DNA of 20,232 bases, from IMG/VR virus record IMGVR_UViG_3300042509_001520, positions 1 to 20,232 of that record; one strand, 5' to 3'. The translations under genes and the position numbers were made by a program. The stretch's first letter is position 1, and each line of letters starts with the position of its first letter. Below are positions 285-17,315 of the stretch, in pieces. Under the pieces are notes generated by a model. That model did no database searches and was not told the origin of the DNA. It saw only the letters and a program-made list of their open reading frames with translations. This DNA comes from a virus.

Positions 285-1025
285 TCAATCCCCCGCGTCA
301 AGAATGGTGGCGTCGGCCGCGCCCTCGGTCGGGGCGGGCATCTCGGCCAGCGCGATGCGCCGCCGGTCGATCAGGTTCGCAAGCCGGGCGTGCGCCTTCG
401 GGTTCGCCTTGGACACTCCCCCCATCGCAACAGCGTTGTGACGCACCCACGCCTCTAGGACGGCGGCATCCGTCGCCCCGTTGATGGCGACGGCGTAACG
501 CTGTCCCCACGCGATCCAGTCGGACCCTTCGCCGTCCGCCAGAACCGGCACGTCGATGCGGTGCGGGTCCTGCTTCGGCGCGGGCTCGGACTTCACGATG
601 CGCGGCGGCGGGGCCTGAGGCTTGGGCGCATCGCCCCGGCCCGACGCGGCGTTCCCGTCGTCGTCCTCGGGTGCAACGCCGACCATCGCCATGAGCGAAT
701 ACCGACGGCTGTATGTGTATGCGCTGCCCAGCCCTTGGGGGTCGTGCTTAACCGGGTTGACGGGATACGTGGAGGCGATCCACTGCCCCGACGAATGCAA
801 GATCATGGTCCGCAGAATGGCGCCCTCGGGCGTCGTCATCGGCGCCTGCACCACGGACAGGCCGTTTTCTGTCAGCGGGCCGCGAATGGCGTCCCAAACT
901 TGGGCGAGGTCCGCGTACCTCGACTTAAAGTGTGGGTTCACCTTGCCCTTGGTCGCGCCCTCGATCTTGGCCTGCGCCTTCGCAAGCGCGGTCGCGAGGT
1001 CCGCGATGTTCTCGCTCATATCCAT
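285..1025 (-). CDS. ERF-family single-strand annealing protein
   Basis: The 246-aa product matches the ERF superfamily of phage recombinases. These bind single-stranded DNA and anneal complementary strands in phage recombination, working with a partner exonuclease. Visible family features are the N-terminal helical segment with KAQAKIEGATKGKVNPHFKS, the 'YADLAQVWDAIRGPLTENGL' block, and the central LGSAYTYSRRYSLMAMVGVAPEDDDGN block, which is diagnostic. A proline- and lysine-rich linker (about residues 130-160) leads to a less conserved C-terminal domain. ATG 1025 overlaps the exonuclease stop as TGATG; an in-frame GTG at 1028 is an alternative, and GAAGGA lies upstream of both. The direct neighbour is the exonuclease, as expected for a Red-like annealing/exonuclease pair. 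The family call is firm; the exact start is less so. Confidence 0.93.
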   Translation of the reverse strand: MDMSENIADLATALAKAQAKIEGATKGKVNPHFKSRYADLAQVWDAIRGPLTENGLSVVQAPMTTPEGAILRTMILHSSGQWIASTYPVNPVKHDPQGLGSAYTYSRRYSLMAMVGVAPEDDDGNAASGRGDAPKPQAPPPRIVKSEPAPKQDPHRIDVPVLADGEGSDWIAWGQRYAVAINGATDAAVLEAWVRHNAVAMGGVSKANPKAHARLANLIDRRRIALAEMPAPTEGAADATILDAGD

Positions 1026-1855
1026 CACGCGGCATCCTTCAGCTTGATGTGGACCGCGCTGTTCTTCGCGCGGCTGACCACGATATCAGACCAGATTAGC
1101 TTACCAACGTCGTCGGGCAGCAGGTCCTTGACGTTCTTGGCGGCGTTCTTGTTGGCGCGCGCGGCGGCTTCCGTATCCGCCCATCCGGTGAGGTGGGTCT
1201 GCATCGCGCCGGCCCAATTCGGCATGGGCTCGCCATGCTCGCGCATCGAGTTGAAGTTCAACGTGCGCCATTTCTCTTGGGGCACGGGCGGCGCGATGGG
1301 GGATGGCGGCGCCGGGTGCGTGAATGTCTCGACGCACGACCAGAACCAATCAATGCGCCCCCAGACCTGGGCCTCGTACTCGGCCGTCCATTCGAGGGTG
1401 TGCAGCTCGGGCTCATCCCCACCCGACGATACCAGCAACGCCGCCGCCTCGGCACCGACGCAAGCCCGCTGTACGACCATTTGAGGCGTGTAGTAGGCCA
1501 GCACGTCGGGCACCTTGCGCCACCGGCCGGGAGCCTTGGCGTCGATGACCAGCGATAGCCCGACCTGCATCCCGTCCAGCGTCGCGCTGACATAGGGACG
1601 GGTCGGGTGCGTTACGCTTTCGCCCCGGCGGGTGATCGCGTGGCCGCTCTTGCGCTGATGCCAGTCGAGGATGGCGGGCTCTAGGGCTACGCCCCGTTGC
1701 ACGTCCCACACGTCGGACAGGTCCACGACGACCGTCTCGCCGACGCACACAAGCCACTGTTCCGTGATGCGCTTCTCGTCCCCTGCCATGAGCGCGGGGA
1801 CGAAGGACGCCGGCACCTCACGGCGGGCGGCGGCCTGTTCGGGGGTGAGGGTCAT
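1025..1855 (-). CDS. YqaJ/lambda-exonuclease-like PD-(D/E)XK nuclease
   Basis: The 276-aa product resembles YqaJ-type viral exonucleases, which resect double-stranded DNA ends to make single strands for the annealing protein. The N-terminal part has the family block RGVALEPAILDWHQRKSGH, followed by the active-site core SATLDGMQVG and LVIDAKAPGRW. The conserved D (in LDG) and D-A-K form the metal-binding D...(D/E)XK motif, with Asp in the place usually held by Glu. The next block, LAYYTPQMVVQRACVGAEAAAL, is the typical downstream helix with Q. The C-terminal 90 residues are alpha-helical and less conserved. ATG 1855 overlaps the previous stop as ATGA, and GAGGAC lies upstream. Its pairing with ERF gives a two-component recombination module. 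Confidence 0.9.
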   Translation of the reverse strand: MTLTPEQAAARREVPASFVPALMAGDEKRITEQWLVCVGETVVVDLSDVWDVQRGVALEPAILDWHQRKSGHAITRRGESVTHPTRPYVSATLDGMQVGLSLVIDAKAPGRWRKVPDVLAYYTPQMVVQRACVGAEAAALLVSSGGDEPELHTLEWTAEYEAQVWGRIDWFWSCVETFTHPAPPSPIAPPVPQEKWRTLNFNSMREHGEPMPNWAGAMQTHLTGWADTEAAARANKNAAKNVKDLLPDDVGKLIWSDIVVSRAKNSAVHIKLKDAA

Positions 1856-2063: not shown

Positions 2064-2389
2064 CGCGGCATCCTTTTCCGGCGCATGGGCACCCCAGCCA
2101 TCTTGACAAGCCGGGTCACCGTGTTGGCGCTAACCATGAGCCTCTCGGTAATGGACGCCAACGCCTCGCCATTAGCGTATGCGTCAACGACCGCGCGCAC
2201 CACTTCCGGCTTGATCCGAGGGCCACCGCCCGCCGGCCGGGGCGCGTGCCCCGCAGCTTGCGCCAGGATGGAGACATAGCGCGGGTGCGTGCCGTGCGTC
2301 ATGGCGATGACGACCAGCTTCTCGCCGGCCACGTAGTCGCGGATGATCGCGGCTTTCGTGTCGGCGGGGATAGGCGTGCCGGCTGGCAT
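2060..2389 (-). CDS. Double helix-turn-helix DNA-binding protein
   Basis: The 109-aa product contains two homeodomain-like HTH units. The first (about residues 9-45) reads TKAAIIRDYVAGEKLVVIAM followed by a recognition helix, and the second (about residues 55-97) reads EVVRAVVDAYANGEALASIT followed by a recognition helix. The spacing resembles the HTH pair of transposase-like and small phage regulators, but there is no catalytic domain. The frame is open upstream to 2491, but ATG 2389 overlaps the pentapeptide stop as TGATG and the upstream extension is low-complexity G/R sequence, so I chose the internal start. The C-terminus is basic (MRRKRMPR), which fits nucleic-acid binding. A regulator of this operon or an accessory DNA-binding protein is possible; the target is unknown. 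Confidence 0.72.
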   Translation of the reverse strand: MPAGTPIPADTKAAIIRDYVAGEKLVVIAMTHGTHPRYVSILAQAAGHAPRPAGGGPRIKPEVVRAVVDAYANGEALASITERLMVSANTVTRLVKMAGVPMRRKRMPR

Positions 2390-3105
2390 CAGGCTACCTC
2401 CCCGCCATTCACCCACCCGCGCGAACGGGCCGTAGCCTCGATGTAATCCAGCGCCGCCAGCACCTCGCGCCGGTCGGGCTTCCCGGACCAATACTCACGG
2501 CCTTCGGGGATCGTCATGTCCCGGCAGCCGGCGCGGACCCGAAGAACGCCGTCTCGGACCCATCCGACGCAGCGCCAGCCGTCAGGCGTGCCAGCGTTGA
2601 TCACGCCCTTGGCGCCGGACAGATTGGCGCGGGCCAGATAGGCGCCGGCCAGATTGGCGCCGGCCAGATTGGCGTCGGCCAGATAGGCGCGGGCCAGATA
2701 GGCGCCGGCCAGATTGGCGCCGGACAGATCGGCGCGGGCCAGATAGGCGCGGGCCAGATAGGCGCCGGCCAGATTGGCGCCGGCCAGATTGGCGTCGGCC
2801 AGATAGGCGCGGGCCAGATAGGCGCCGGCCAGATTGGCGCCGGCCAGATTGGCGTCGGCCAGATAGGCGCCGGCCAGATAGGCGCCGGCCAGATTGGCGC
2901 CGGCCAGATTGGCGTCGGCCAGATAGGCGCCGGCCAGATTGGCGCGGGCCAGATAGGCGCCGGTCAGATCGGCGCGGGCCTTGACCGCCAGCTTCACGGC
3001 GACGCCGAGGCGCACGCCGCCGGTCGCCCCGTCGTGCTCCGCCGGCAGGTCGGCGCTAAACAGGACTGCGCCCGTCTCGCGATGCTTGATTTCCATCGTA
3101 CTCAT
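2389..3105 (-). CDS. Pentapeptide-repeat protein
   Basis: The product (238 aa) has an N-terminal domain of about 44 residues (MSTMEIKHRETGAVLFSADL and onwards), then 24 consecutive A(D/N/Y)Lxx pentapeptides at about residues 45-164, which would fold as a right-handed quadrilateral beta-helix. The C-terminal domain has Trp/Cys-containing VRAGCRDMTIPEGREYW and a helical tail. This last domain recurs in phage pentapeptide proteins. Some family members (Qnr, MfpA) mimic DNA and bind gyrase; whether this one does is inference. ATG 3105 overlaps the upstream stop as TGATG; GTG 3108 is an alternative. The repeats are nearly identical at DNA level, including exact 60-base copies, so copy number could change by recombination. 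Confidence 0.93.
   Translation of the reverse strand: MSTMEIKHRETGAVLFSADLPAEHDGATGGVRLGVAVKLAVKARADLTGAYLARANLAGAYLADANLAGANLAGAYLAGAYLADANLAGANLAGAYLARAYLADANLAGANLAGAYLARAYLARADLSGANLAGAYLARAYLADANLAGANLAGAYLARANLSGAKGVINAGTPDGWRCVGWVRDGVLRVRAGCRDMTIPEGREYWSGKPDRREVLAALDYIEATARSRGWVNGGEVA
2611..2970 (-). repeat. 15-bp coding tandem repeat with 60-bp higher-order unit
   Basis: Twenty-four units of 15 bases lie head to tail, each encoding one pentapeptide of the gene around them. On the plus strand the unit resembles GGCGCSGGCCAGATW. A 60-base (four-unit) period is visible: 2641-2700 and 2761-2820 are identical, and 2821-2880 and 2881-2940 differ from them at only one or two positions. The repeats have no spacers, so this is not a CRISPR array. 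Confidence 0.95.
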
Positions 3106-3317
3106 CACGCGGACTCCGTCTCTGGATAGGCTTTGCGGATAGCCGCTTGTGCGGCAATCGTATCATCGCCGTGGTAGATGACCCTGACCGGAACGATGGC
3201 ATCCAGCGGGGTCGCGTAGACCGTCACGCCGAACCAGTCGAACGTGACGGTGATACCGGCCGGGCCGATGCGTCTAGACACGGCGCGGGCATGGGTGATT
3301 AGAGCGTCGGCGCTCAT
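3105..3317 (-). CDS. Hypothetical protein (70 aa)
   Basis: The small product begins MSADALITHARAVSRRIGPA and continues with a beta-rich segment (ITVTFDWFGVTVYATPLDAI) and a short helical end with many Ala. No family is recognised, and there is no membrane segment. ATG 3317 overlaps the upstream stop as ATGA, and its stop overlaps the pentapeptide-protein start as TGATG. Position and coupling support a real gene of the leftward early operon; function unknown. Confidence 0.7.
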   Translation of the reverse strand: MSADALITHARAVSRRIGPAGITVTFDWFGVTVYATPLDAIVPVRVIYHGDDTIAAQAAIRKAYPETESA

Positions 3318-3602: not shown

Positions 3603-3632
3603 CCCCGCCGCATCCGGTGAGGCGCGGCGGGG
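3603..3632 (-). other. Hairpin in the leader of the leftward transcript
   Basis: The arms CCCCGCCGC (3603-3611) and GCGGCGGGG (3624-3632) pair perfectly around a 12-base loop. The hairpin lies between the predicted leftward start (about 3666) and the first start codon (3571). No T-run follows in the leftward direction, so it is not a simple terminator. An antitermination (nut-like) or mRNA-stability element is possible but unproven. Confidence 0.5.
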
Positions 3633-3672
3633 TAGTTCGGAGGAACATCGGCGGGAGGTGCCGACAAGGAAG

Positions 3673-3701
3673 ATGGTACGCGGCGTACTAACTCCGCGCA
3701 A
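3673..3701 (-). promoter_or_regulatory. Leftward early promoter (PL-like)
   Basis: On the minus strand a TTGCGC -35 (3701-3696) is separated by exactly 17 bases from a TACCAT -10 (3678-3673). Transcription would start near 3666 and serve the recombination operon. The first three bases of the -10 (TAC) are the end of operator 3676-3688, the same geometry seen at the rightward promoter. That mirror symmetry is the main support; each hexamer alone is only a moderate match to consensus. Confidence 0.6.
3676..3688. promoter_or_regulatory. Operator dyad O1
   Basis: Perfect dyad GTACG-CGG-CGTAC with a 3-base spacer. It lies in the spacer of the leftward promoter and shares TAC with the -10, so a bound regulator would block polymerase. 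The likely ligand is the Cro-like protein encoded at 3780-3998. Confidence 0.7.
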
Positions 3702-3710
3702 GCAAAATAA

Positions 3711-3723
3711 GTGCGGAACGTAC
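3711..3723. promoter_or_regulatory. Operator dyad O2 (one mismatch)
   Basis: GTGCG-GAA-CGTAC has the same 5-3-5 layout as the other two dyads, with one mismatch in the left arm. It lies between the two divergent promoters, overlapping neither hexamer pair. The centre is 35 bases from O1 and 47 from O3, so it could set cooperativity or order of occupation. Confidence 0.55.
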
Positions 3724-3744
3724 CGAAAAAATTTCGCATCCGGC

Positions 3745-3773
3745 TTGACCGGGCCGGGTACGGCGCGTACTAT
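3745..3773 (+). promoter_or_regulatory. Rightward early promoter (PR-like), leaderless transcript
   Basis: TTGACC (3745-3750), a 17-base spacer, then TACTAT (3768-3773). The expected start, about seven bases after the -10, coincides with the A of ATG 3780, and no purine ribosome site precedes that ATG. This predicts a leaderless mRNA, as known for lambda cI from PRM. Operator O3 fills the spacer end and shares TAC with the -10. Confidence 0.65.
3758..3770. promoter_or_regulatory. Operator dyad O3
   Basis: Perfect dyad GTACG-GCG-CGTAC, ending ten bases before the regulator start codon. It overlaps the rightward -10, which points to autoregulation of the regulator and control of the whole rightward operon. 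Confidence 0.7.
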
Positions 3774-3779
3774 CTCGAT

Positions 3780-3998
3780 ATGCAGCACGCAACCATCATC
3801 AATCTGTGGCCGACCATCGCCGAGTGCTCGCGGGACGTCGGCCAGCCGTATGAGACCGTGAAACAGTGGCGCCGCCGGAACAGCATCCCGGCGGAGCACT
3901 GGCGCGCGGTCATCGCAGCCGCAGACGCCAAGCAGTTTCAAGGCGTTACGCTTGACGCTTTAGTGAGCGGCCTCGCGTCGGCTCGCGAGGCGGCGTAA
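3780..3998 (+). CDS. Cro-like HTH regulator (carph-isopro type)
   Basis: The 72-aa product begins MQHATIINLWPTIAECSRDV and continues with an HTH, GQPYETVKQWRRRNSIPAEHW. This matches the small phage Cro/CI-like 'carph-isopro' proteins, with the conserved V-x-x-W-x-x-R...IP-x-x-HW pattern (about residues 27-43). It has only a DNA-binding domain, with no protease or dimer domain of the CI type, so it behaves like Cro. The frame extends upstream to 3711, but ATG 3780 coincides with the predicted transcription start and the extension would cross two operators. It heads the rightward early operon; its stop overlaps the next ATG as TAATG. It is the best candidate for binding the three GTRCG-N3-CGTAC dyads. 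I infer repression of both early promoters. Confidence 0.82.
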   Translation: MQHATIINLWPTIAECSRDVGQPYETVKQWRRRNSIPAEHWRAVIAAADAKQFQGVTLDALVSGLASAREAA

Positions 3999-4186: not shown

Positions 4187-4311
4187 TCGGTGACCACATC
4201 ATCCTTTTCGGCCTTGCGGCCCTGGCGGCGTTTTCCGTCGTCGGCGTGTTCGCCCTGCTTTTGCGGGCGGTCGAGGAGATAGTTGAGAAGGCGATGGATG
4301 GAAGCGAATAA
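4183..4311 (+). CDS. Small single-pass membrane protein (42 aa)
   Basis: The product starts MIGDHIILFGLAALAAFSVV and continues into LLL, then a charged helix with RAVEEIVEKAMDGSE. One hydrophobic stretch of about 24 residues is followed by an amphipathic tail, so a one-pass inner-membrane protein with a cytoplasmic C-terminal helix is likely. ATG 4183 overlaps the preceding stop as ATGA. Its place right after the regulator is where many temperate phages carry small host-interaction or exclusion proteins, but no family can be named. Confidence 0.65.
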   Translation: MIGDHIILFGLAALAAFSVVGVFALLLRAVEEIVEKAMDGSE

Positions 4312-4363
4312 CCCCGGCCGCATGGGGCGACCGGGGCATCGGCGGACGTTGACGGACGTCCGT
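4312..4363. other. Stem-loop and 12-bp perfect palindrome before the ParB-like genes
   Basis: CCCCGG (4312-4317) pairs with CCGGGG (4331-4336), with an inner CGC/GCG extension across one mismatch and a 5-base loop. Just after it, ACGGACGTCCGT (4352-4363) is a perfect 12-base palindrome. No T-run follows, so it is not an intrinsic terminator. It could be an RNA structure, a protein site, or a site for the ParB-fold proteins encoded immediately downstream. Confidence 0.4.
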
Positions 4364-4387
4364 GAACACAAGGGGACGAAACGAAAT

Positions 4388-5338
4388 ATGACATTGGACC
4401 TTCTGAATGGCAACGCCACAGTTCACGACCGCGCCCGTGCGGTGGTGACTGAGGACCGCAAGGTGTTCTCCGCGTCGAACGCGACGGACGTGCGGCGCGC
4501 GCGCGAGTTCCTTCGGACCCGCATTGCCCAAGGCACCAAGGGCATGTTCAGCGAGGTCGGCACGCTGACGCCGGCCTTGGCCGAAATCATCCTTGCCGAG
4601 CACAATGGCGGCAATCGGCCGTTGCGGGCTACGGCTGCTGAGAAGTGGGCCAATGAAATCCGCGAGGGCCGTTGGAAGCTGACGGCGCAGGGCATCAGCT
4701 TCTCGCCCGAAGGAATGCTTAACAACGGTCAGCACCGGTGCGTCGGCGTTGTGTCTGCGGGCCGGCCCGTCCCAATGAACTTTACTTTTGGGGAGCCGCG
4801 CGACGCATTCCTCGTCCATGACACCGGATCGCTCAGGTCAGCGAGCGACGTACTGTCAGTGATGGGAGAGGTGCAGACATCGGCGTTGGCCGGGGCCGCT
4901 CGCACCCTTTACATTGTTGAGCGCGGCGGCCGAGGCAATTACAGCATCACCAATGAGGTAGTCGCCTCAATCGTGGACGCGAACCCTAGTTTGCGACACG
5001 CGGCTAGCGTCGGGCACACAATTGCGTGTCGGCTGAAGGCGAGCCCGTCTGGTATCGCTGTCGCATACTTTCTGATTAAGCGAGATAGCGAGCGGAAGAA
5101 CCGGGCGGAGGCATTTTTTGATGCGCTAAGGACCGGGGCCGATCTTGCTGGGGAACGGAACCCGATCCTCATTCTCCGCAACAGCCTCCTGAGCCGGCAA
5201 ATTAGGTCGCCGCCTGGGCAGAACACTGGGGCGTGGGTCGCGGCGTCTACGGTTATCGCGTGGAACGCTTGGGTTCGGGCAAAGAAGACGGTCAGCGTCA
5301 AGTGGCCTGACGGCGTTAACTTCCCGGCGGTGGTCTGA
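4388..5338 (+). CDS. GQHR-motif ParB/Srx-like fold phage protein
   Basis: The 316-aa product belongs to a phage protein type often labelled ParB-like nuclease domain. The key stretch runs from about residue 60 to 140: TLTPALAEIILAEHNGGNRP, then WANEIREGRWKLTAQGISFS, then the GQHR signature (residues 114-117). In ParB-like folds this Arg-containing motif binds nucleotide. The rest (residues 150-316) is helical and is not recognised. The frame is open to 4283, but ATG 4388 is preceded by AGGGGA and follows a 76-base leader with a stem-loop and a palindrome, so I chose it. Its stop overlaps the second ParB gene as TGATG. Two tandem proteins of this fold suggest a joint DNA-binding or nucleotide-dependent role; partition is only one possibility. 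Confidence 0.72.
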   Translation: MTLDLLNGNATVHDRARAVVTEDRKVFSASNATDVRRAREFLRTRIAQGTKGMFSEVGTLTPALAEIILAEHNGGNRPLRATAAEKWANEIREGRWKLTAQGISFSPEGMLNNGQHRCVGVVSAGRPVPMNFTFGEPRDAFLVHDTGSLRSASDVLSVMGEVQTSALAGAARTLYIVERGGRGNYSITNEVVASIVDANPSLRHAASVGHTIACRLKASPSGIAVAYFLIKRDSERKNRAEAFFDALRTGADLAGERNPILILRNSLLSRQIRSPPGQNTGAWVAASTVIAWNAWVRAKKTVSVKWPDGVNFPAVV

Positions 5339-6120
5339 TGTCGCGCCCGGCGATGATCGTGCAGACGGTGGGCTTAGACGAAATAGTCGTCGGGCACCGC
5401 CTGCGGGCTGGCGTGAACCAAGAGGCCGTCAGCCGTCTCGTGGACAGCATAGAGCGCGTTGGCCTGCGGACGCCGATCAGCGTTCGGCACGTCGATGAGT
5501 GGACTGACCCCGAGACGGGCGAGCAGATCAGCGGCGCGCTTGAACTGGTAGCCGGTCGGCATCGGCTAGAGGCATTGCGGCGCATGGGGGCGACGTCCGC
5601 CCCCGTGGTCATGGTGCAGGACGAGACGGAGGCCCGCCTTTGGGAGATTTCCGAAAACCTGCACCGGGCCGAACTGTCGCCGGTCGAGCGCGCCGAACAC
5701 ATTGATGAGTGGCGCAGGCTGACGGTGGAGAAGGTGCGGAATGTTTCCGCACCTTTGCCCGGCGGCGAACAGCCAAAAGACCGTGGACATCGAAAGACTG
5801 CGGAAACTCTTGGCGTTCACGAGAAAACCGTTCGGAACGCCGAGAAGATCGCCGCTCTCCCCAAAGACGTCCGAGACACCGCGCGCACCGAGGGCTGGAC
5901 CCAAGATCGACTGCTTCGCGAGGCCGCCCCGACGCGCGTAGAGCCGGCGCGTCCGGTCAAGCCGGCGCCCGCCATCCTCAACGACTTTGAAACCGAGGAA
6001 GCGTGGCGCGGCGCAATGAACCGCGTGTGGAACCGCGGCTCCGCTGAATGGCGCGAGCGGTGGCTTGACGGGGCCGAGCGATCGGTCTTCGACACTACGG
6101 GTGCGGGGGGTGCCGTCTGA
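5338..6120 (+). CDS. ParB N-terminal-domain protein
   Basis: The 260-aa product has a ParB/Srx N-terminal domain: a VVGHRLRAGVNQEAVSRLVD segment, then SIERVGLRTPISVR, the nucleotide-binding GRHRLEA motif (residues 73-79), and the ENLHRAELSPVERAEHI block (about residues 107-122). A ParB-type HTH follows near residues 150-175 (AETLGVHEKTVRNAEKI). The C-terminal part is proline-rich with a helical end. Canonical ParB proteins are CTPases that slide on DNA from parS; phage relatives also serve as transcription or replication factors. No parA partner is present in the window, so segregation is uncertain. ATG 5338 overlaps the preceding stop, and its own stop overlaps the next ATG, both as TGATG. 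Confidence 0.88.
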   Translation: MSRPAMIVQTVGLDEIVVGHRLRAGVNQEAVSRLVDSIERVGLRTPISVRHVDEWTDPETGEQISGALELVAGRHRLEALRRMGATSAPVVMVQDETEARLWEISENLHRAELSPVERAEHIDEWRRLTVEKVRNVSAPLPGGEQPKDRGHRKTAETLGVHEKTVRNAEKIAALPKDVRDTARTEGWTQDRLLREAAPTRVEPARPVKPAPAILNDFETEEAWRGAMNRVWNRGSAEWRERWLDGAERSVFDTTGAGGAV

Positions 6121-6533: not shown

Positions 6534-6730
6534 GGATGTTGGAGGACATGGCCCTTGACGTCCGACGGACCATAGCCCTTTGGGTGACCGAGGGCCTGTC
6601 CGTCCCTCAAATGTGTGACGTCCTCGGCGTGGCGCGGCCTGATCTGGACACCAATCAGCTTCGCTACGTCCAGCAGCGGGCGCTTTCCCGGTGGCTGGCG
6701 ATGGGCGCGGCGGACATGGAGGCCGGGTGA
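6530..6730 (+). CDS. Hypothetical helical protein (66 aa)
   Basis: The product contains DVRRTIALWVTEGLSVPQMC and then DVLGVARPDLDTNQLRYVQQRALSRWLAMG: three helices, with an HTH-like middle part. GTG 6530 overlaps the upstream stop as GTGA; GTG 6527 and ATG 6536 are alternatives in the same frame. Its stop overlaps the initiator start as TGATG. No family is recognised; a small DNA-binding partner of replication is possible because of its position. Confidence 0.6.
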   Translation: MRMLEDMALDVRRTIALWVTEGLSVPQMCDVLGVARPDLDTNQLRYVQQRALSRWLAMGAADMEAG

Positions 6731-7626
6731 TGGCTCGCATCCGATCGATACACCCAGGATGGTTCACGGATGAGGCGTGGGTGTCGGTATCGATGCCGGC
6801 GCGCATCCTTGGGATTGGCCTATTGACCGAGAGCGATGATTGCGGCGCCTTTGAGTGGAAGCCGCTGACGCTCAAAATGAGGCTATTCCCCGCCGATAGC
6901 GTAGACGTGCCTGATCTTCTTGCGGAGTTGGAAGGCGCTGGATTGATCAAAAGGTACGAACACGGCGCCCGTCATTACGGGCTTGTTCGGAACTTCATGC
7001 GGTTTCAGCGCCCGAAAAAGCCGAAATCAGTCCACTTCATCCCCGAGGCGTTACGCCATTTTGTCGGCATCGCGCCCGACGATGCGGAACCGAACGTCGA
7101 ACATCGCGACCCAGTTCCGACTTTTTCGGAACCGACGCGAGTTGATGCGCCTGCGGTTCCCCGATCGTCGGAAATCGTCCCGCAGATGGAGGATGGAGGA
7201 TGGAGGATGGAGGGTGAAGATATAGAGGCTGGCGCCTCTATATCTCGAAAGCGAGCGCGCCAGTCGGTTGCGGATGAGCGGTTTTCAGAGTTCTGGGCCG
7301 CGTATCCTCGCAAGGCTGACAAGCGCAAGGCCGAGAAGGCTTGGGGCGCGGCGATCAAGCGAGCCGACCCGGATGTCATCATTCGCGGCGCGGCTGCCTA
7401 CGCCGGGGAGCGGAGCGGAAAAGACCCGGCTTACACCAAACACCCGACAACGTGGCTTAACGCGGATGCGTGGGCCAATGAACCGGAGCCCGATCATGTC
7501 AGGATTACCGATCACGACCCGCACTCCCGTCGCTCAGACCGGCGCGGGGCCGGTGGCATCTTGGCAGCCGTCGCAGACCTTGAAGCGGCTGATCGAAGAC
7601 ATGCCGATTTCGGTGATGGGGTCTGA
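6730..7626 (+). CDS. O-like replication initiator / replisome organiser
   Basis: The 298-aa product matches phage replication proteins. The N-terminal winged-helix domain begins MARIRSIHPGWFTDEAWVSV and continues with a LLTESDDCGAFEW core (about residues 1-110). A variable linker (about 115-180) contains the repeats described separately. The C-terminal domain begins FSEFWAAYPRKADKRKAEKA and ends with the YTKHPTTWLNADAWAN signature typical of these proteins. Such proteins bind the origin through one domain and recruit the helicase loader through the other. The frame opens earlier, but ATG 6730 overlaps the preceding stop as TGATG and begins the conserved sequence. The last 131 bases overlap the next gene. 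Its function as an initiator is inferred from domain layout, the linker repeats and the P-like neighbour. Confidence 0.82.
   Translation: MARIRSIHPGWFTDEAWVSVSMPARILGIGLLTESDDCGAFEWKPLTLKMRLFPADSVDVPDLLAELEGAGLIKRYEHGARHYGLVRNFMRFQRPKKPKSVHFIPEALRHFVGIAPDDAEPNVEHRDPVPTFSEPTRVDAPAVPRSSEIVPQMEDGGWRMEGEDIEAGASISRKRARQSVADERFSEFWAAYPRKADKRKAEKAWGAAIKRADPDVIIRGAAAYAGERSGKDPAYTKHPTTWLNADAWANEPEPDHVRITDHDPHSRRSDRRGAGGILAAVADLEAADRRHADFGDGV
7085..7244 (+). other. Origin-like repeat cluster inside the initiator gene
   Basis: In the linker-coding part of the initiator gene are: CGGAACCGA at 7085-7093 and 7127-7135, with an inverted CGGTTCC at 7154-7160; a 7-base inverted repeat GTTCCGA/TCGGAAC around CTTTT (7114-7132); four exact tandem ATGGAGG units (7186-7213); and a perfect 11-base inverted repeat GATATAGAGGC/GCCTCTATATC with a 4-base loop (7219-7244). 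The last is AT-richer than its surroundings. Lambda-type phages place their origin at this spot in gene O, so this is a good origin candidate by analogy. Confidence 0.5.
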
Positions 7627-8206
7627 CGGCCAGTTCGAGACGCGCAAGGGCTGGATCGCGCCGCGATGGGTGGACCCTCGCGATGCGGCCGAGGCCCGGC
7701 GGTACGTGGTGGCGCTGACGCAGGAACTGGACCGACGGGCCGATGATCCGGTGGTGCGGCGGTGGCTGGCATCGCTGGCGCTGGCGGTCGCGGGGTCCAT
7801 GAACGCCGAGGACGCCAAGGCGAAGTTGCAGGTTATGACGCTGATCTTCGCGAAGCGGTATCCGGCGATCATGTGGACGGACGATCGGCTGGCCGAAGTG
7901 GCGTGCGCCTGTAAATGGTTTCCCAGCGCGGCCGAGCTATCGGCTATCTTGGACGGGCATGTTGATCGGATGGCAGACGAACGCGATCGGGCCGAAAGGG
8001 TGGCGAGCGCCTCGACCGTCGGAACGGATGCGCCTGACACGTCGTCCGGCGATGCCGATGAGCAACGCGCGGCACGGGCGGCAATGGAGCGGGTGCGCGA
8101 GCGGATTAAGCCGCGCGGCCCTTGGGGCGAGGGCCTTCGGTCGTGGGCGGATGTGGCTGAGAACACGATCAAGGCGAAGTGGACGGTTTACGGAGGCGAG
8201 CGGTGA
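7496..8206 (+). CDS. P-like helicase-loader candidate
   Basis: The 236-aa product contains QTLKRLIEDMPISVMGSDGQ, a helical middle part, then WTDDRLAEVACACKWFPSAA and a C-terminal domain with many charged residues. The W(F)PS-A-EL pattern recurs in phage replication proteins encoded after the initiator, which in the lambda P role deliver the replicative helicase. That role is inferred from position and this motif. ATG 7496 has GGAG about nine bases upstream; ATG 7601 and 7616 are shorter alternatives. In the 131-base overlap with the initiator, third-position GC is higher in this frame (my count about 77% against 58%), which supports the long form. Its stop overlaps the resolvase start as GTGA. 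Confidence 0.65.
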   Translation: MSGLPITTRTPVAQTGAGPVASWQPSQTLKRLIEDMPISVMGSDGQFETRKGWIAPRWVDPRDAAEARRYVVALTQELDRRADDPVVRRWLASLALAVAGSMNAEDAKAKLQVMTLIFAKRYPAIMWTDDRLAEVACACKWFPSAAELSAILDGHVDRMADERDRAERVASASTVGTDAPDTSSGDADEQRAARAAMERVRERIKPRGPWGEGLRSWADVAENTIKAKWTVYGGER

Positions 8207-8649
8207 TCCTCGGACTTGACCCCGGACTGCGAACGGGCTGGGCACTGTCAGCCGGCCGGTGCGGGACGCTTGACCTTCGGAGCGAATACGCCGAAGATCA
8301 GGGCAAGGCGGGGGCCTTGTTCGGGCGATGGCTGGCGGATTTGATCGTGGAACACGGCGTCTGGACGGTGGTGATCGAGCGCCCGTTCGGCCGGCACCCC
8401 AGCACTGAGTTTGCCGTCTACCTCGCCCGCCGGGCGCATGAGGTCGCGTGGGTCCACCACGTTCGCCGCCACGAGTTCACGCCGAGCGGCATGAAGAAGC
8501 TGGTCGCGGGCGACGGGCGCGCGGCGAAAGCGGGCGTCATGGCGGCAGTTGAGCGAGCGGGCCGATGGGCGTTCACATCGGACCACGAAGCCGACGCCGC
8601 CGCCCTAGTCCTCGCATTCGAGCGCATGAGCGCGAAGGAGGCCGCGTGA
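8203..8649 (+). CDS. RuvC-like Holliday junction resolvase
   Basis: The 148-aa product has the RuvC/RNase H-fold pattern: ILGLDPGLRTGWAL with catalytic Asp6, then TVVIERPFG with Glu59, a helical segment GMKKLVAGDGRAAKAGVM, and the C-terminal DHEADAAALVLA with Asp127 and Asp131. These acidic residues bind metal ions and cut branched DNA. In phages such enzymes resolve recombination or replication junctions before packaging, and this one would complement the ERF and exonuclease genes. The frame is open upstream to 8179, but GTG 8203 overlaps the previous stop as GTGA, has GGAGG upstream and begins the first beta strand. The length is close to that of compact phage RuvC proteins. Confidence 0.9.
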   Translation: MILGLDPGLRTGWALSAGRCGTLDLRSEYAEDQGKAGALFGRWLADLIVEHGVWTVVIERPFGRHPSTEFAVYLARRAHEVAWVHHVRRHEFTPSGMKKLVAGDGRAAKAGVMAAVERAGRWAFTSDHEADAAALVLAFERMSAKEAA

Positions 8650-9851
8650 TTTACGGATCAGTGTGCAGCGGCATCGAAGCCGCGTCCGTCGCTTGGGAGC
8701 CGCTGGGCTGGACGCCGTCGTTCTTCAGCGAGATTGAGCCGTTCCCGCGCTCGGTTCTCGCGCACCGTTTCCCCGTCGTCCCGTTGCACGGCGACTTCAC
8801 CACGATAGAGGCGGGCGGCTATGAGCCAATTGACCTTCTTGTCGGCGGAACCCCATGCCAGTCGTTCAGCGTCGCCGGCCTCCGAGGCGGCTTGGCAGAC
8901 GACCGCGGCAACCTGGCCCTTGAGTATCTTAGGCTGGCTTCACGCCTCCGGCCCCGATGGCTGGTATGGGAGAACGTGCCCGGCGTCCTGTCGTCAAATG
9001 GAGGACGGGACTTTGGTTCCATTCTCGGGGGCTTGGTTGAACTCGGGTATGGGTTCGCTTACCGAGTGCTTGACGCTCAGTTCTTCGGAGTTCCACAGCG
9101 CCGCCGTCGCGTCTTCGTTGTCGGATGTGCTGGAGACTGGCGACGTGCCGCAGCGGTACTTTTTGAGCGCCACAGCTTGCAGGGGCATCCTGCGCCGCGC
9201 CGAGAAGCGGGGCAAAGAGTTGCCGACAGCCTTACGGTCGGCGCTAACCAATGCAGCGGCTTTCCGGGCGACTTCGTAGAGGCCAGCACCGGCGACATCT
9301 CGCACTGCCTCAACGCAGGCGGGATGGGGCGGCAGGACTACGAGACGGAAACGCTCGTCACCCACACCCTGCGCGGCGACGGGTTTGACGCCAGCGAGGA
9401 CGGGACCGGTCGCGGCACGCCGTTGGTGCCGGTGGCGTTCGGGTGGAACAAAAGCGCTCATCAGACTATGCGCGTTGCGGAAACAACAGACGCCCTTCAA
9501 GCGTCCCCGCAAAGCAACCCAGCGGTCGCGTTCAACATGCACAAAAGCGGAAACAACGCATCAACTTTGGGCGTGTCCGTAGACCGCACGGATTGCTTGC
9601 GGGCTTTTGAGAAAGCCCCCTTCGCGGTGATGCAGCCGGCATCCGCCGTCCGACGCCTCACGCCGACGGAAGCGGAGCGCCTACAGGGGTTCCCCGACGG
9701 GTGGACGGACGTGCCGCACCGAGGCAAGCCCGCCGCTGATGGGCCTCGCTACAAGGCTTTGGGCAACTCAATGGCCGTCCCTTGTATGCGCTGGATCGGG
9801 GATCGCATCGCCGCTGTGGAGGCCATCACCGCAAACAGGAGGGCAGCATGA
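8646..9851 (+). CDS. C5-cytosine DNA methyltransferase (Dcm type)
   Basis: The 401-aa product shows the ordered motifs of 5-methylcytosine enzymes: motif I GSVCSGIEAASVAW (residues 4-17), the catalytic motif IV GGTPCQSF with Cys71, motif VI WENVPG (108-113), motif VIII QRRRRVFVVG (151-160), a long variable target region, and the C-terminal LTPTEAERLQGFPDGW and KALGNSMAVP motifs. It would methylate phage DNA, and no restriction enzyme is nearby, so protection from host restriction is the likely benefit. GTG 8646 overlaps the resolvase stop as GTGA. Codons 8646-8822 and those after 9252 have high GC third positions (about 83-85% by hand count), but 8994-9251 has only about 55%, exactly where another gene lies in a second frame. 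Confidence 0.95.
   Translation: MIYGSVCSGIEAASVAWEPLGWTPSFFSEIEPFPRSVLAHRFPVVPLHGDFTTIEAGGYEPIDLLVGGTPCQSFSVAGLRGGLADDRGNLALEYLRLASRLRPRWLVWENVPGVLSSNGGRDFGSILGGLVELGYGFAYRVLDAQFFGVPQRRRRVFVVGCAGDWRRAAAVLFERHSLQGHPAPRREAGQRVADSLTVGANQCSGFPGDFVEASTGDISHCLNAGGMGRQDYETETLVTHTLRGDGFDASEDGTGRGTPLVPVAFGWNKSAHQTMRVAETTDALQASPQSNPAVAFNMHKSGNNASTLGVSVDRTDCLRAFEKAPFAVMQPASAVRRLTPTEAERLQGFPDGWTDVPHRGKPAADGPRYKALGNSMAVPCMRWIGDRIAAVEAITANRRAA
8821..9279 (+). CDS. Overprinted ORF inside the methyltransferase gene
   Basis: This 152-aa frame lies entirely within the methyltransferase gene, shifted by one base. It starts MSQLTFLSAEPHASRSASPA, has the middle part SGPDGWYGRTCPASCRQMED and FSGAWLNSGMGSLTECLTLS, and ends with LETGDVPQRYFLSATACRGI followed by LRRAEKRGKELP. 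I recall this pattern as a recurrent phage hypothetical protein type ('RYFLS..ACxGILRRAEKRGK'); I cannot confirm it by search here. Third positions of the host frame lose their GC bias across this ORF and recover after it, as expected if both frames are constrained. The ORF begins after catalytic-loop-preceding codons and ends at 9279 (TAG). A start at ATG 8821 has only a weak GGCGG upstream. The alternative is an open frame without product. Confidence 0.55.
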   Translation: MSQLTFLSAEPHASRSASPASEAAWQTTAATWPLSILGWLHASGPDGWYGRTCPASCRQMEDGTLVPFSGAWLNSGMGSLTECLTLSSSEFHSAAVASSLSDVLETGDVPQRYFLSATACRGILRRAEKRGKELPTALRSALTNAAAFRATS

Positions 9852-10354: not shown

Positions 10355-11742
10355 CCGACTACCAGTCCTTCCTCGCCGGAAAGGTCGTCGCGGACGTGCC
10401 GACCGGCATGTCGGCCATCCCCGAACTGCCGAGCGTCATGTTCCCGCATCAGCGCGATATCGTGCGATGGGCGCTGCGTCGCGGGCGGGCGGCCGTGTTC
10501 GCCGGCACGGGCCTCGGCAAAACACTGATGGAATTGGCATGGGCGCAGGCCGTGGCGTCGCACACGGGGCGCCCGGTCATCATCTTCGCCCCGCTGGCCG
10601 TCGCCGCGCAGATCATCCGCGAGGCTGATCGGTTCGGCATTCCCGCCCGGCAAGCCGCGACCCATGCCGACGTCGGGCCGGGCGTCAACGTCACGAACTA
10701 CCAGAAGATCGGTCATTTTGATCTGGCTGCGTTCGGCGGCGTGGTGCTGGACGAGAGCAGCATCCTTAAAAACGTGGACGGGCATTATCGCACCCGCCTC
10801 GTGACGGAGTGCGCTGCGATCCCGTTCCGGCTTGCGGCGACCGCCACGCCGGCCCCCAACGACTTCATGGAATTGGGCAACCACGCCGAGTTCTTGGGGG
10901 TCATGTCCTACACGGATATGCTGGCGTGCTTCTTCACGCACGACAGCGGCGAAACGCAGAAGTGGCGCCTCAAAGGCCACGCCGAAGGCCCGTTCTGGCG
11001 ATGGATGTGTTCGTGGTCGGTCATGCTCCGCAAGCCGTCCGATCTGGGATATGACGACGGCGCCTATACGCTTCCGCCGATGCACCAGCATCAACACACG
11101 GTCGCGGTGGACTACGCCCCGAGCGCCGGCACCGGCTTCCTGTTCCCCATGGAGGCGGTGACGATGCAGGAACGTCAGCAGGCCCGGCGCGACACGGTTG
11201 CGGATCGCGTCGCCATGGCCGCGCGCATCACGCCTGCCGACCGCCCGTTCGTGTGGTGGTGTCACCTGAATTCGGAGGGCGAGGCGCTTGCTCGTGCGAT
11301 TCCCGGCGCTGTCGAGGTTCGCGGGTCCGATCCCGAGGATGTGAAAGAGCGCCGGCTAGTCGAATTCAGCGAAGGGCGCATCCGAGTGCTGGTCACGAAG
11401 GCGTCGATCGCCGGATTCGGGATGAACTGGCAGCACTGTGCCGACACCGGCTTTGTCGGCCTCAACGACAGTTTTGAGCAAGTCTATCAGGCCGTGCGCC
11501 GGTTCTGGAGGTTCGGCCAAACGCAGCCGGTCAACGTCCATTTCATCGCGGCCGAAACCGAGGGCGCCGTCGTCGCCAACCTTCGCCGGAAGGAGGCCGA
11601 CGCCGATCGGATGGCTGCTGCCATGGTCGCGCACATGGCCGACCTTTCGTCCGAAACCATCCGCGGCGCCACGCGCGACCGCGCCGACTACAACCCGACG
11701 CAGCCCGTGCGGCTGCCGTCCTTCCTGACGAGGTCAGCATGA
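10351..11742 (+). CDS. SNF2/DEAD-like DNA helicase
   Basis: The 463-aa product is a superfamily 2 ATPase. The Q-like FPHQRDIVRWAL precedes Walker A GTGLGKT (residues 52-58). The DEAD-box equivalent is VVLDESS (residues 131-137), motif III is AATATP (162-167), and the C-terminal half carries the second RecA fold with LVTKASIAGFGMNWQ and motif VI QAVRRFWRFGQ (380-390). The insert PNDFMELGNHAEFLGVM is typical of a phage subfamily. These proteins use ATP to move on or remodel DNA; the exact role in phages is unknown. ATG 10351 overlaps the previous stop as ATGA and the stop overlaps the methyltransferase start as ATGA, which suggests joint expression and perhaps a complex. Confidence 0.92.
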   Translation: MTDYQSFLAGKVVADVPTGMSAIPELPSVMFPHQRDIVRWALRRGRAAVFAGTGLGKTLMELAWAQAVASHTGRPVIIFAPLAVAAQIIREADRFGIPARQAATHADVGPGVNVTNYQKIGHFDLAAFGGVVLDESSILKNVDGHYRTRLVTECAAIPFRLAATATPAPNDFMELGNHAEFLGVMSYTDMLACFFTHDSGETQKWRLKGHAEGPFWRWMCSWSVMLRKPSDLGYDDGAYTLPPMHQHQHTVAVDYAPSAGTGFLFPMEAVTMQERQQARRDTVADRVAMAARITPADRPFVWWCHLNSEGEALARAIPGAVEVRGSDPEDVKERRLVEFSEGRIRVLVTKASIAGFGMNWQHCADTGFVGLNDSFEQVYQAVRRFWRFGQTQPVNVHFIAAETEGAVVANLRRKEADADRMAAAMVAHMADLSSETIRGATRDRADYNPTQPVRLPSFLTRSA

Positions 11743-12683
11743 TCGGAGCAATCGAGCAGGTCATCACGGATGACTATGCGATCTACCAGGGCGACGCCTG
11801 CGAACTCATCCGCGCCGTGCCCACGGACAGCATCCATTTCGGCGTTCACTCCCCGCCGTTTGAGGGGTTGTACAAGTTCTCAAACAGCGAGCGAGATATC
11901 AGCAACAACGAGGGCGCTTCGTTCTGGGCGCACTATGGGTTCCTCATCACGGAACTGTATCGCGTGACCATGCCGGGCCGTTTGCACTCGGTCTACTGTA
12001 TGCAACTTCCGACGAGCAAGATCAGGCATGGGTATATTGGGATGCGGGACTTTCGGGGTGACGTCATCCGCGCCTACGAGGCCGCCGGCTGGATTTTCCA
12101 TTCCGAGGTTTGCATCTGGAAAGACCCGGTTGTCGCTCAGCAGCGCACCAAGTCCATTCGCCTTCTGCACAAGCAGGTCGTAAAGGACAGCACCATCAGC
12201 GCGCAGGGCCTTGCGGACTACATTGTCACGTTTCGCAAGCCGGGCGACAACCCGGAGCCCGTGGCGGGGTGCTTCGATCAGTACGTCGGGCCGGCAACCA
12301 ATGAGCCCGACCGCAGCAAGTACACGTCTCACATGGACGGGCGGAACTGGTACTCGATTGAGGTCTGGCAGCGGTACGCTTCGCCGGTCTGGATGGACAT
12401 CGATCAGACGCGGACCTTGCAGTACCGCAACGCTCGTGACGAGCGCGACGAAGTCCACATTTCGCCGCTGCAACTCGACGTGATTGAGCGCTGCATTGAC
12501 TTGTGGTCGAACCCCGGCGACGTGGTGCTAACGCCGTTCCTCGGCATCGGGTCGGAGGTTTATGGCGCGATTGAAATGGGGCGCAAGGGCATCGGATTCG
12601 AGTTGAAGGACAGCTACTTTCGGCAGGCGGTGAGGAACCTTGCCGAAGCGACGCGGCGCCAAAATGGGTTGTTCGCAACATGA
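11739..12683 (+). CDS. Beta-class DNA amino-methyltransferase (N4-C or N6-A)
   Basis: The 314-aa product carries the catalytic motif IV as SPPF (residues 38-41) near the N-terminus and the AdoMet-binding motif I as TPFLGIGSE (residues 265-273) near the C-terminus. This order is that of beta-class methyltransferases. Between them lies the target region, with FRGDVIRAYEAAGWIFHSEV and WKDPVVAQQRTKSIRLLHKQ blocks. SPPF-type motifs favour N4-cytosine methylation, but N6-adenine cannot be excluded. It follows the helicase with ATGA overlap; this pair recurs in phages. With the Dcm-type enzyme the phage has two methyltransferases and no restriction enzyme, so protection or marking of phage DNA is likely. 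Confidence 0.9.
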   Translation: MIGAIEQVITDDYAIYQGDACELIRAVPTDSIHFGVHSPPFEGLYKFSNSERDISNNEGASFWAHYGFLITELYRVTMPGRLHSVYCMQLPTSKIRHGYIGMRDFRGDVIRAYEAAGWIFHSEVCIWKDPVVAQQRTKSIRLLHKQVVKDSTISAQGLADYIVTFRKPGDNPEPVAGCFDQYVGPATNEPDRSKYTSHMDGRNWYSIEVWQRYASPVWMDIDQTRTLQYRNARDERDEVHISPLQLDVIERCIDLWSNPGDVVLTPFLGIGSEVYGAIEMGRKGIGFELKDSYFRQAVRNLAEATRRQNGLFAT

Positions 12684-15702: not shown

Positions 15703-15726
15703 AAAAACCCCCGCGCTAGGCGGGGG
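15703..15726 (-). terminator. Intrinsic terminator of the leftward three-gene unit
   Basis: Read on the minus strand, CCCCCGC (15726-15720) pairs with GCGGGGG (15714-15708) around a 5-base loop and is followed by TTTTT (15707-15703). The HTH gene's stop codon lies in the loop. On the plus strand no T-run follows, so it acts mainly leftward. Confidence 0.8.
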
Positions 15727-15934
15727 TGTCTCCGTAGGGGGGGAGGTTCATCGCGACGGCGCTACACGCAAGCGCCACGACTTTAGGGACTTCGACGGGC
15801 GTTTCGTTGGCATCCCGTCGCTTCCCCGCCTCATACAGAATTACCGATGAGGCGCTGATACCGAGGGCTTCGGCGGCGGCGCGCTGCGATTTGAAGAACC
15901 GCTTGCGCCAGTCTTTGAACTGGCCGGGCGTCAT
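15716..15934 (-). CDS. XRE/Cro-like HTH repressor (72 aa)
   Basis: The product begins MTPGQFKDWRKRFFKSQRAA, followed by the HTH continuation ALGISASSVILYEAGKRRD. The order (helix with Q-x-x-A, then LGIS-x-x-S-V, then YE-x-G) is typical of XRE-family regulators, about residues 15-40. The tail (VEVPKVVALACSAVAMNLPP) is a short helical end. It is the last gene of a leftward unit, and ATG 15934 overlaps the preceding stop as ATGA. It is the likely ligand of the two GCAC-N3-GTGC dyads at the unit's promoter, giving autoregulation. Confidence 0.85.
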   Translation of the reverse strand: MTPGQFKDWRKRFFKSQRAAAEALGISASSVILYEAGKRRDANETPVEVPKVVALACSAVAMNLPPYGDTPA

Positions 15935-16621: not shown

Positions 16622-16650
16622 AATGTAGCGCACTGAGTGCAGGCTGTCAA
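16622..16650 (-). promoter_or_regulatory. Strong leftward promoter of the inverted unit
   Basis: On the minus strand a consensus TTGACA (16650-16645), a 17-base spacer and TACATT (16627-16622). It is the closest match to sigma70 consensus in the window and would transcribe the three leftward genes to the terminator at 15703. Confidence 0.8.
16630..16640. promoter_or_regulatory. Operator dyad A (GCAC-TGA-GTGC)
   Basis: A perfect 4-3-4 dyad that lies wholly inside the spacer of the TTGACA/TACATT promoter. With dyad B, 22 bases away, it suggests two repressor dimers on one face of the DNA. Confidence 0.65.
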
Positions 16651-16742: not shown

Positions 16743-17315
16743 ATGTCCAAATTTTACGTCTACCAGTTGGTCGACCCCAGATCCGATGAGGTGTTTTACG
16801 TCGGCAAGGGATGCGGTCGTCGCAGCAACGACCATGAGAGAGACGCGCGGCGCGGGGTCGAGTCAGACAAGTGCGAGCGCATTCGCGACATCCTCGCGGC
16901 TGGGCACAAGGTCGCGATCGTCGTTGTAAGCCGGCACGCTGACGAGCAATCGGCCTACGCTGCCGAGCGCGCGTTGATTGAAAAGATTGGCTTGGAGAAC
17001 CTGACCAACGTTCTGCCCGGCGGGTCGTGGTCTGATGCGCTCAGAAGCCTTGCTGACGGTCGCGCGACGCGAGCTAAGTTGGATGGCGCGTTGTTCGGGC
17101 TGGCGTGGTGGCACAAGACCGGGTGCGCGACCAAAGCCAACCTTGGCCCAATTGGGACGGTCGATCTTAGGCGCGTGGCGCGCGGGTGGGTGGAGCAAGT
17201 TCGCGATCTCTCGTCGCAGGTCGGCAAGAAAGACGCGCGGAAAATTGCTGTGCGGCACGGCGCAACGGCGTGGCTTGATGCAATAGACGGGGCGCCACAT
17301 GCCCAGGCCGTCTAA
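16743..17315 (+). CDS. GIY-YIG nuclease family protein (LEM-3-like)
   Basis: The 190-aa product has an N-terminal GIY-YIG domain of the variant found in LEM-3-like proteins: FYVYQL (residues 4-9) and FYVGKGCGRR (18-27), followed by charged helices and Glu80 in ALIEKIG, then NLTNVLPGG with Asn89. The C-terminal half (about residues 100-190) is not recognised and may bind DNA. GIY-YIG enzymes cut one strand of DNA; in phages they act as homing or accessory nucleases, and free-standing ones often sit near packaging genes. The start has AAGGCGG nearby, partly inside a hairpin. The last 17 bases overlap the small terminase gene. Confidence 0.85.
   Translation: MSKFYVYQLVDPRSDEVFYVGKGCGRRSNDHERDARRGVESDKCERIRDILAAGHKVAIVVVSRHADEQSAYAAERALIEKIGLENLTNVLPGGSWSDALRSLADGRATRAKLDGALFGLAWWHKTGCATKANLGPIGTVDLRRVARGWVEQVRDLSSQVGKKDARKIAVRHGATAWLDAIDGAPHAQAV

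Follow-up and report, generated by a model that had tools for sequence, protein, structure and literature searches.

A Back-to-Back pL/pR-Like Promoter Pair with Putative Cro Operators and No Adjacent CI Gene in a Phage Contig

Known Early Control Systems

In phage lambda, pL/OL and pR/OR, together with Cro, form divergent early promoters with the same operators lying over promoter elements. The same arrangement is found in the window, i.e., the whole 20,232-base stretch of viral DNA analyzed here. The gene order is also alike: recombination genes on the left, and a cro-like gene followed by replication genes on the right. Lambda-like operator sets (OR1, OR2, and OR3, plus OL1 and OL2) are present in relatives of the window. 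The cro mRNA of lambda has a leader, whereas its counterpart in the window is predicted to be leaderless. Some virulent phages, such as Streptococcus thermophilus DT1 (cro-ori region), reportedly keep Cro-like control without a working lysogeny module; their host group, regulator, and layout differ from those of the window phage.

In the telomere phage PY54, experiments have shown the cI and cro mRNAs to be leaderless (PMC4488713), which is an experimental precedent for the predicted leaderless regulator mRNA of the window. PY54 differs in that its Cro recognizes just one 16-bp site, OR3, without repressing its own gene, and in that CI is present. Switch sites had been missed in related host groups: among phiLM21-like prophages, no operator matched that of lambda or 16-3 exactly (PMC12429752), and the operators of the Brucella phage BiPBO1 could not be predicted (PMC4729917); BiPBO1 was not recovered here as a member of the carph-isopro regulator family. 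The literature searched contains neither a mention of carph-isopro nor a description of GTAC-N5-GTAC operators, and within it, this operator consensus appears to be unreported so far.

Operators and Promoters of the Divergent Gap

A scan of the window for GTRCGNNNCGTAC (GTRCG-N3-CGTAC) gave three places, or five strand-matches, all in the divergent gap (Table 1), as a preliminary description of the locus had claimed. Only 0.10 is expected in the window, and no shuffle reached the observed count. The full virus record is the window itself; a record-wide scan therefore has the same scope and returns the same three places. The middle dyad lies off the mirror axis: its center is 35 bp from that of the left operator and 47 bp from that of the right one. 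A terminator-like match at 3688-3676 was discarded, as it is the operator dyad itself.

Both promoters have the 17-base spacers described earlier, and each -10 indeed opens with the last TAC of an operator. The promoters are arranged back to back at a distance of 82 bp, and the space separating them contains no gene. The complete unit, TTG-N10-GTAC-N5-GTAC, is present twice in the window and never in 300 dinucleotide shuffles. A consensus promoter scan also lists the rightward promoter. It omits the leftward one because the -35 of the latter, TTGCGC, matches only three of the six consensus bases.

This omission, the 3/6 match, and the left -10 of the near-identical relative L004 (TACCGT, with one half of the left operator lost) could suggest that the rightward promoter alone is real, in which case the left site would be an auxiliary operator and another promoter would serve the leftward genes. 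Such an arrangement is improbable: on the minus strand, the full unit occurs in 0 of 300 shuffles, relatives carry exactly such an opposite-strand promoter, and several of them (e.g., L005/L139, L061, and L067) have TTGCGC, again with this 17-nt register, in the promoter of the cro-like gene itself.

Table 1. Operators, promoters, and flanking genes of the early region of the window.
Feature	Positions	Strand	Remarks
Erf-like single-strand annealing protein, leftward operon	285..1028	-	PHROG 2324, E 1.5e-42
RecE-like/lambda-exonuclease-type nuclease, leftward operon	1025..1855	-	PHROG 434, E 3.5e-19
First leftward ORF, 85 aa	3314..3571	-	Without family match; GGAGGA at 3586-3581 resembles a Shine-Dalgarno motif
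G+C-rich hairpin, presumed pL leader RNA	3603..3632	-	Kept in L004, sequence beyond diverges
Leftward early promoter (pL-like)	3673..3701	-	TTGCGC 3701-3696, 17 nt, TACCAT 3678-3673
Left operator (OL1-like), GTACGCGGCGTAC	3676..3688	.	Overlaps pL -10
Middle operator, GTGCGGAACGTAC	3711..3723	.	Halves as in OR2 of relatives: GT[GTC]C on the left, GTAC on the right
Rightward early promoter (pR-like)	3745..3773	+	TTGACC 3745-3750, 17 nt, TACTAT 3768-3773
Right operator (OR1-like), GTACGGCGCGTAC	3758..3770	.	Overlaps pR spacer and -10
72-aa Cro-like regulator (carph-isopro domain)	3780..3998	+	First gene of rightward operon, predicted leaderless
PHROG 5931 protein, rightward operon	4283..5338	+	E 5.7e-50
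ParB-like protein, rightward operon	5338..6120	+	PHROG 3264, E 3.4e-26
Replication-initiation-like protein (lambda O position), rightward operon	6691..7626	+	PHROG 270, E 8.7e-31

The 72-aa Regulator

The 72-aa protein matches the NCBIfam carph-isopro domain model NF046037 with an E-value of 3.4e-10 and 39.9 bits, just above the cut-off of 38. Of 38 aligned relatives, 26 also match this model, with E-values of at most 0.01. No Pfam family was matched by the window protein. Its confident AlphaFold2 model (pLDDT 91) has five helices; the best matches in the PDB are phage Cro and CI domains (Xfaso1 Cro, the 434 repressor, N15 Cro, and P22 C2), whose TM scores of 0.5-0.6, with no E-value below 0.4, point to a possible Cro/CI-like fold. 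Searching the PDB by sequence gave no meaningful match, and the protein tree of the family is built on so few columns that the lineage of the window takes no definite place in it.

The position of the gene is that of cro. It opens the rightward early operon, and its relatives, from Rhizobium, Caulobacter, and other phages, stand in the cro position, divergent from an S24/CI-type repressor gene. In the window itself, this divergent repressor is missing beside the Cro-like gene. The 72-aa protein is best regarded as a putative Cro-like regulator that would bind the GTAC dyads and repress both pL and pR. With 6 nt between the end of the rightward -10 and the ATG at 3780, and with no Shine-Dalgarno motif, transcription is predicted to begin at the AUG and to yield a leaderless regulator mRNA.

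A second 72-aa protein, of the HTH_3/XRE type (15716-15934, minus strand), ends a short minus-strand gene group. At 16622-16650 on the same strand lies a strong promoter, TTGACA-17-TACATT, whose spacer holds a separate dyad, GCACTGAGTGC (16630-16640); together, they may form a separate autoregulated unit. This HTH protein was rejected as the regulator meant in the preliminary description, having no GTAC dyads nearby and not being at the divergent gap.

A Fixed Register among the Relatives

About 100 family loci (105 scored) were collected by scanning genomes and viral contigs with peptide patterns, and they are not a random sample. In 94 of the 105, GTAC-N5-GTAC lies 18-32 nt (typically 22-25) before an in-frame ATG. 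A second site, most often GTGC-N5-GTAC, follows 34-36 bp further upstream in many of them. In the 35 non-redundant loci, whose promoter sequences differ by at least 15%, TTG is placed 13 nt ahead of the dyad in 97-100%, the -10 begins with the last TAC of the dyad, and the ATG comes 5-9 nt after the -10 in all but one (34/35). None of the 35 has a Shine-Dalgarno-like motif before the regulator start. From this fixed register, it follows that the operator/promoter geometry first noticed in the window is a family trait.

The OR2 of the relatives nearly always combines an imperfect left half (GT[GTC]C) with an intact right half, the exception being the perfect site of L020. The middle site of the window (GTGC...GTAC) obeys this rule, but it is 47 bp, not 35, from OR1. 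Its 35-bp distance to the left operator is a spacing also found for OL2 in relatives. The middle operator may therefore be read as an OR2 now common to both promoters.

The dyads could also be sites for a host factor or for phage DNA methyltransferases rather than operators of the regulator; in favor of this, GTAC is short and palindromic, and DNA methyltransferase genes are present in the phage. This is highly improbable: the dyads of the window are confined to the divergent gap, the relatives come from many hosts and have the unit almost only at the two early promoters, and L051, whose recognition helix differs, keeps the register with GTGC-N5-GCAC in place of the usual dyad. The earlier proposal was that one regulator acts through identical geometry in both directions. 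Its geometric part is borne out, the same operator/-35/-10 register recurring in nearly all regulator relatives, and the family-wide sequence comparison makes a strong case for the operator/promoter assignment.

Promoter Pairs and the CI Repressor

In 36 whole phage records, a scan for TTG-N10-GTAC-N5-GTAC found one copy per strand, diverging, in 27. Two records have 2 + 1 copies, three have a single copy, and four have none; the reversed pattern, used as a control, gave zero matches. The opposite-strand copy points away from the cro-like gene and is accompanied by a further operator (OL2) at -26 or -35. In Rhizobium phage RHph_TM3_3_3, for example, it lies in front of a leftward operon that includes a RecT-like gene. 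The two copies correspond to a lambda-like pL and pR. All 20 pairs examined are 689-4265 bp apart, with a CI-type repressor between them.

A CI profile built from the relatives detected a divergent repressor upstream in 99 of the 105 loci. The six others comprise the lineage of the window and L004, another lineage made up of L096-L098, and L027, which is counted as CI-less with just 1.1 kb of upstream sequence present. Erf as bait yielded L115-L118, of use for the CI test only. The CI profile has no match in the window, L004, L115-L118, or L098. Between or beside the promoters of the window there is no CI-type repressor gene, and bistable immunity of the lambda type does not fit what is present on these fragments. 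Models for S24 and tyrosine integrase likewise have no match in the seven CI-less records, again fragments, while an integrase is found in 25 of the 33 remaining ones. The window (20 kb) and its CI-less relatives being incomplete, a repressor or integrase may lie in their unsequenced parts; in the window, a terminase gene is near one end, and structural genes are absent beyond. On balance, the window phage is likely lytic and may have lost lysogeny.

An exact search of IMG/VR for other back-to-back fused pL/pR units found none. A relaxed search returned 47 stretches with zero fused units, and those few that contain a member of the regulator family represent ordinary pL regions. The motif, its register, the pL/pR pair of the relatives, and the missing repressor at the window site all emerge from comparing sequences.

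The Near-Identical Relative L004

The regulator of L004 is 99% identical to that of the window, with one substitution. Over 3669-3779, the two differ only at 3674, 3687-3693, 3713, and 3759, the sequence between the operators being otherwise identical. The change at 3674 produces the altered pL -10 mentioned above; those at 3687-3693 fall in the left operator's right half and on neighboring bases, and those at 3713 and 3759 affect the left halves of the middle and right operators, respectively. OL1 and OR1 are both imperfect in L004, which means that the window lineage does not strictly maintain dyad symmetry. Upstream of the left gene, the leader and its hairpin are kept, and the stretch beside the start codon differs.

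The lambda vir mutant carries changes in OL1, OR2, and OR1. It is tempting to read the changes of L004 in the same way, as an escape from repression by resident prophages. Relaxed constraint is a rival explanation, and L004 is a single case whose OR2-type change falls within the normal family range. A wider scenario, in which a lambda-organized lineage excised its immunity interval to leave an 82-bp bidirectional Cro-only element and L004-like members, as a natural analog of lambda vir, altered all three operators simultaneously and so escape resident prophages with GTAC-N5-GTAC sites, is tentative and somewhat doubtful.

Flanking Genes and Side Elements

The whole presumed pL leader has a z of -2.8, and its strong hairpin is a possible attenuation or antitermination element. 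Rfam and tRNA scans gave no matches. At 2389-3108 (minus strand), short DNA repeats form a near-perfect array that encodes a pentapeptide-repeat protein; the array is far shorter in the aligned L004 sequence, so copy number varies. A C5-cytosine DNA methyltransferase gene and a second DNA-methyltransferase-like gene lie at 8565-9851 and 11739-12683 (plus strand), and a GIY-YIG nuclease-like gene at 16743-17315. The PHROG 5931 protein as bait retrieved no relatives. In L117 (7839-10621), an exonuclease/Erf operon diverges from a non-carph regulator-like ORF (8192-8755, minus strand), followed by a PHROG 5931 relative, possibly a regulator swap within the same layout.

A Model for Early Control

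The preferred reading, with a probability of roughly 0.7, is that the gap is a fused pL/pR, the repressor interval being absent and Cro-like feedback being the sole early control. Leftward, pL would drive the small ORFs, the exonuclease, and Erf; rightward, pR would drive the Cro-like regulator, the ParB-like protein, and the replication-initiation-like protein. After infection, the Cro-like protein, made from an mRNA starting at its AUG, would accumulate, fill OR1, OL1, and the middle site, and hinder RNA polymerase at both -10s, so that both early operons would be turned down together. Because the CI-type repressor of the relatives is absent here, the element would act as a one-regulator negative-feedback timer and not as a lysis/lysogeny switch. 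The ancestor was presumably temperate, loss of the repressor gene having brought pL and pR together.

The preliminary description likened the gap to OR/OL of lambda packed into about 100 bases. The likeness is supported by an opposite-strand promoter copy in nearly every complete relative, and the compaction is now read as fusion of pL and pR without the repressor interval; a two-state switch is not supported, as no CI antagonist turns up at the site or elsewhere on the contig. Some observations speak against fused promoters under Cro alone: the incompleteness of the contigs, the second 72-aa protein, of the XRE type, the leftward -35, weak by consensus, the imperfect operators of L004, and the relatives' operators, which may be read by CI too. 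For this last reason, motif conservation alone does not name the binding protein.

The phage might still be temperate, a relocated repressor gene acting in trans on the fused pL/pR. The contig is incomplete, and the XRE-type protein, with its own dyad-bearing promoter, could be a candidate. However, CI adjoins the Cro-like gene in the 99 loci mentioned above, the seven CI-less contigs give no match to S24 or tyrosine integrase, and the XRE protein has no S24 domain and no GTAC dyad nearby. A repressor in trans is therefore considered unlikely.

Comparison with Known Systems

Regulator family, operator core, and register are shared with the carph-isopro Cro/CI prophage regions of rhizobia and other alphaproteobacteria (e.g., Rhizobium phages RHph_TM3_3_3 and RHph_N28_2), as are the start-codon spacing and the divergent pL/pR pair. 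These regions differ in having a CI-type repressor between pL and pR and an OR2-OR1 distance of 34-36 bp instead of 47. For this large family of alphaproteobacterial prophages, the comparison provides a testable operator consensus and promoter geometry, and carph-isopro proteins, mostly annotated as hypothetical, gain a likely role as Cro. The second CI-less lineage (metagenomic contigs L096-L098; 930-3198 in L098) resembles the window in that a carph-family regulator stands head to head with the exonuclease and Erf, with no CI between or nearby. It differs by its lack of clear GTAC operators, by a GAGG Shine-Dalgarno motif before the regulator, and by its distant sequence. Compared with lambda, the window has pL and pR only 82 bp apart, no cI, a carph-isopro regulator, and GTAC-N5-GTAC operators. 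It may be seen as nature's own test of which parts of a lambda-type circuit are retained without CI: two promoters and the operators of Cro.
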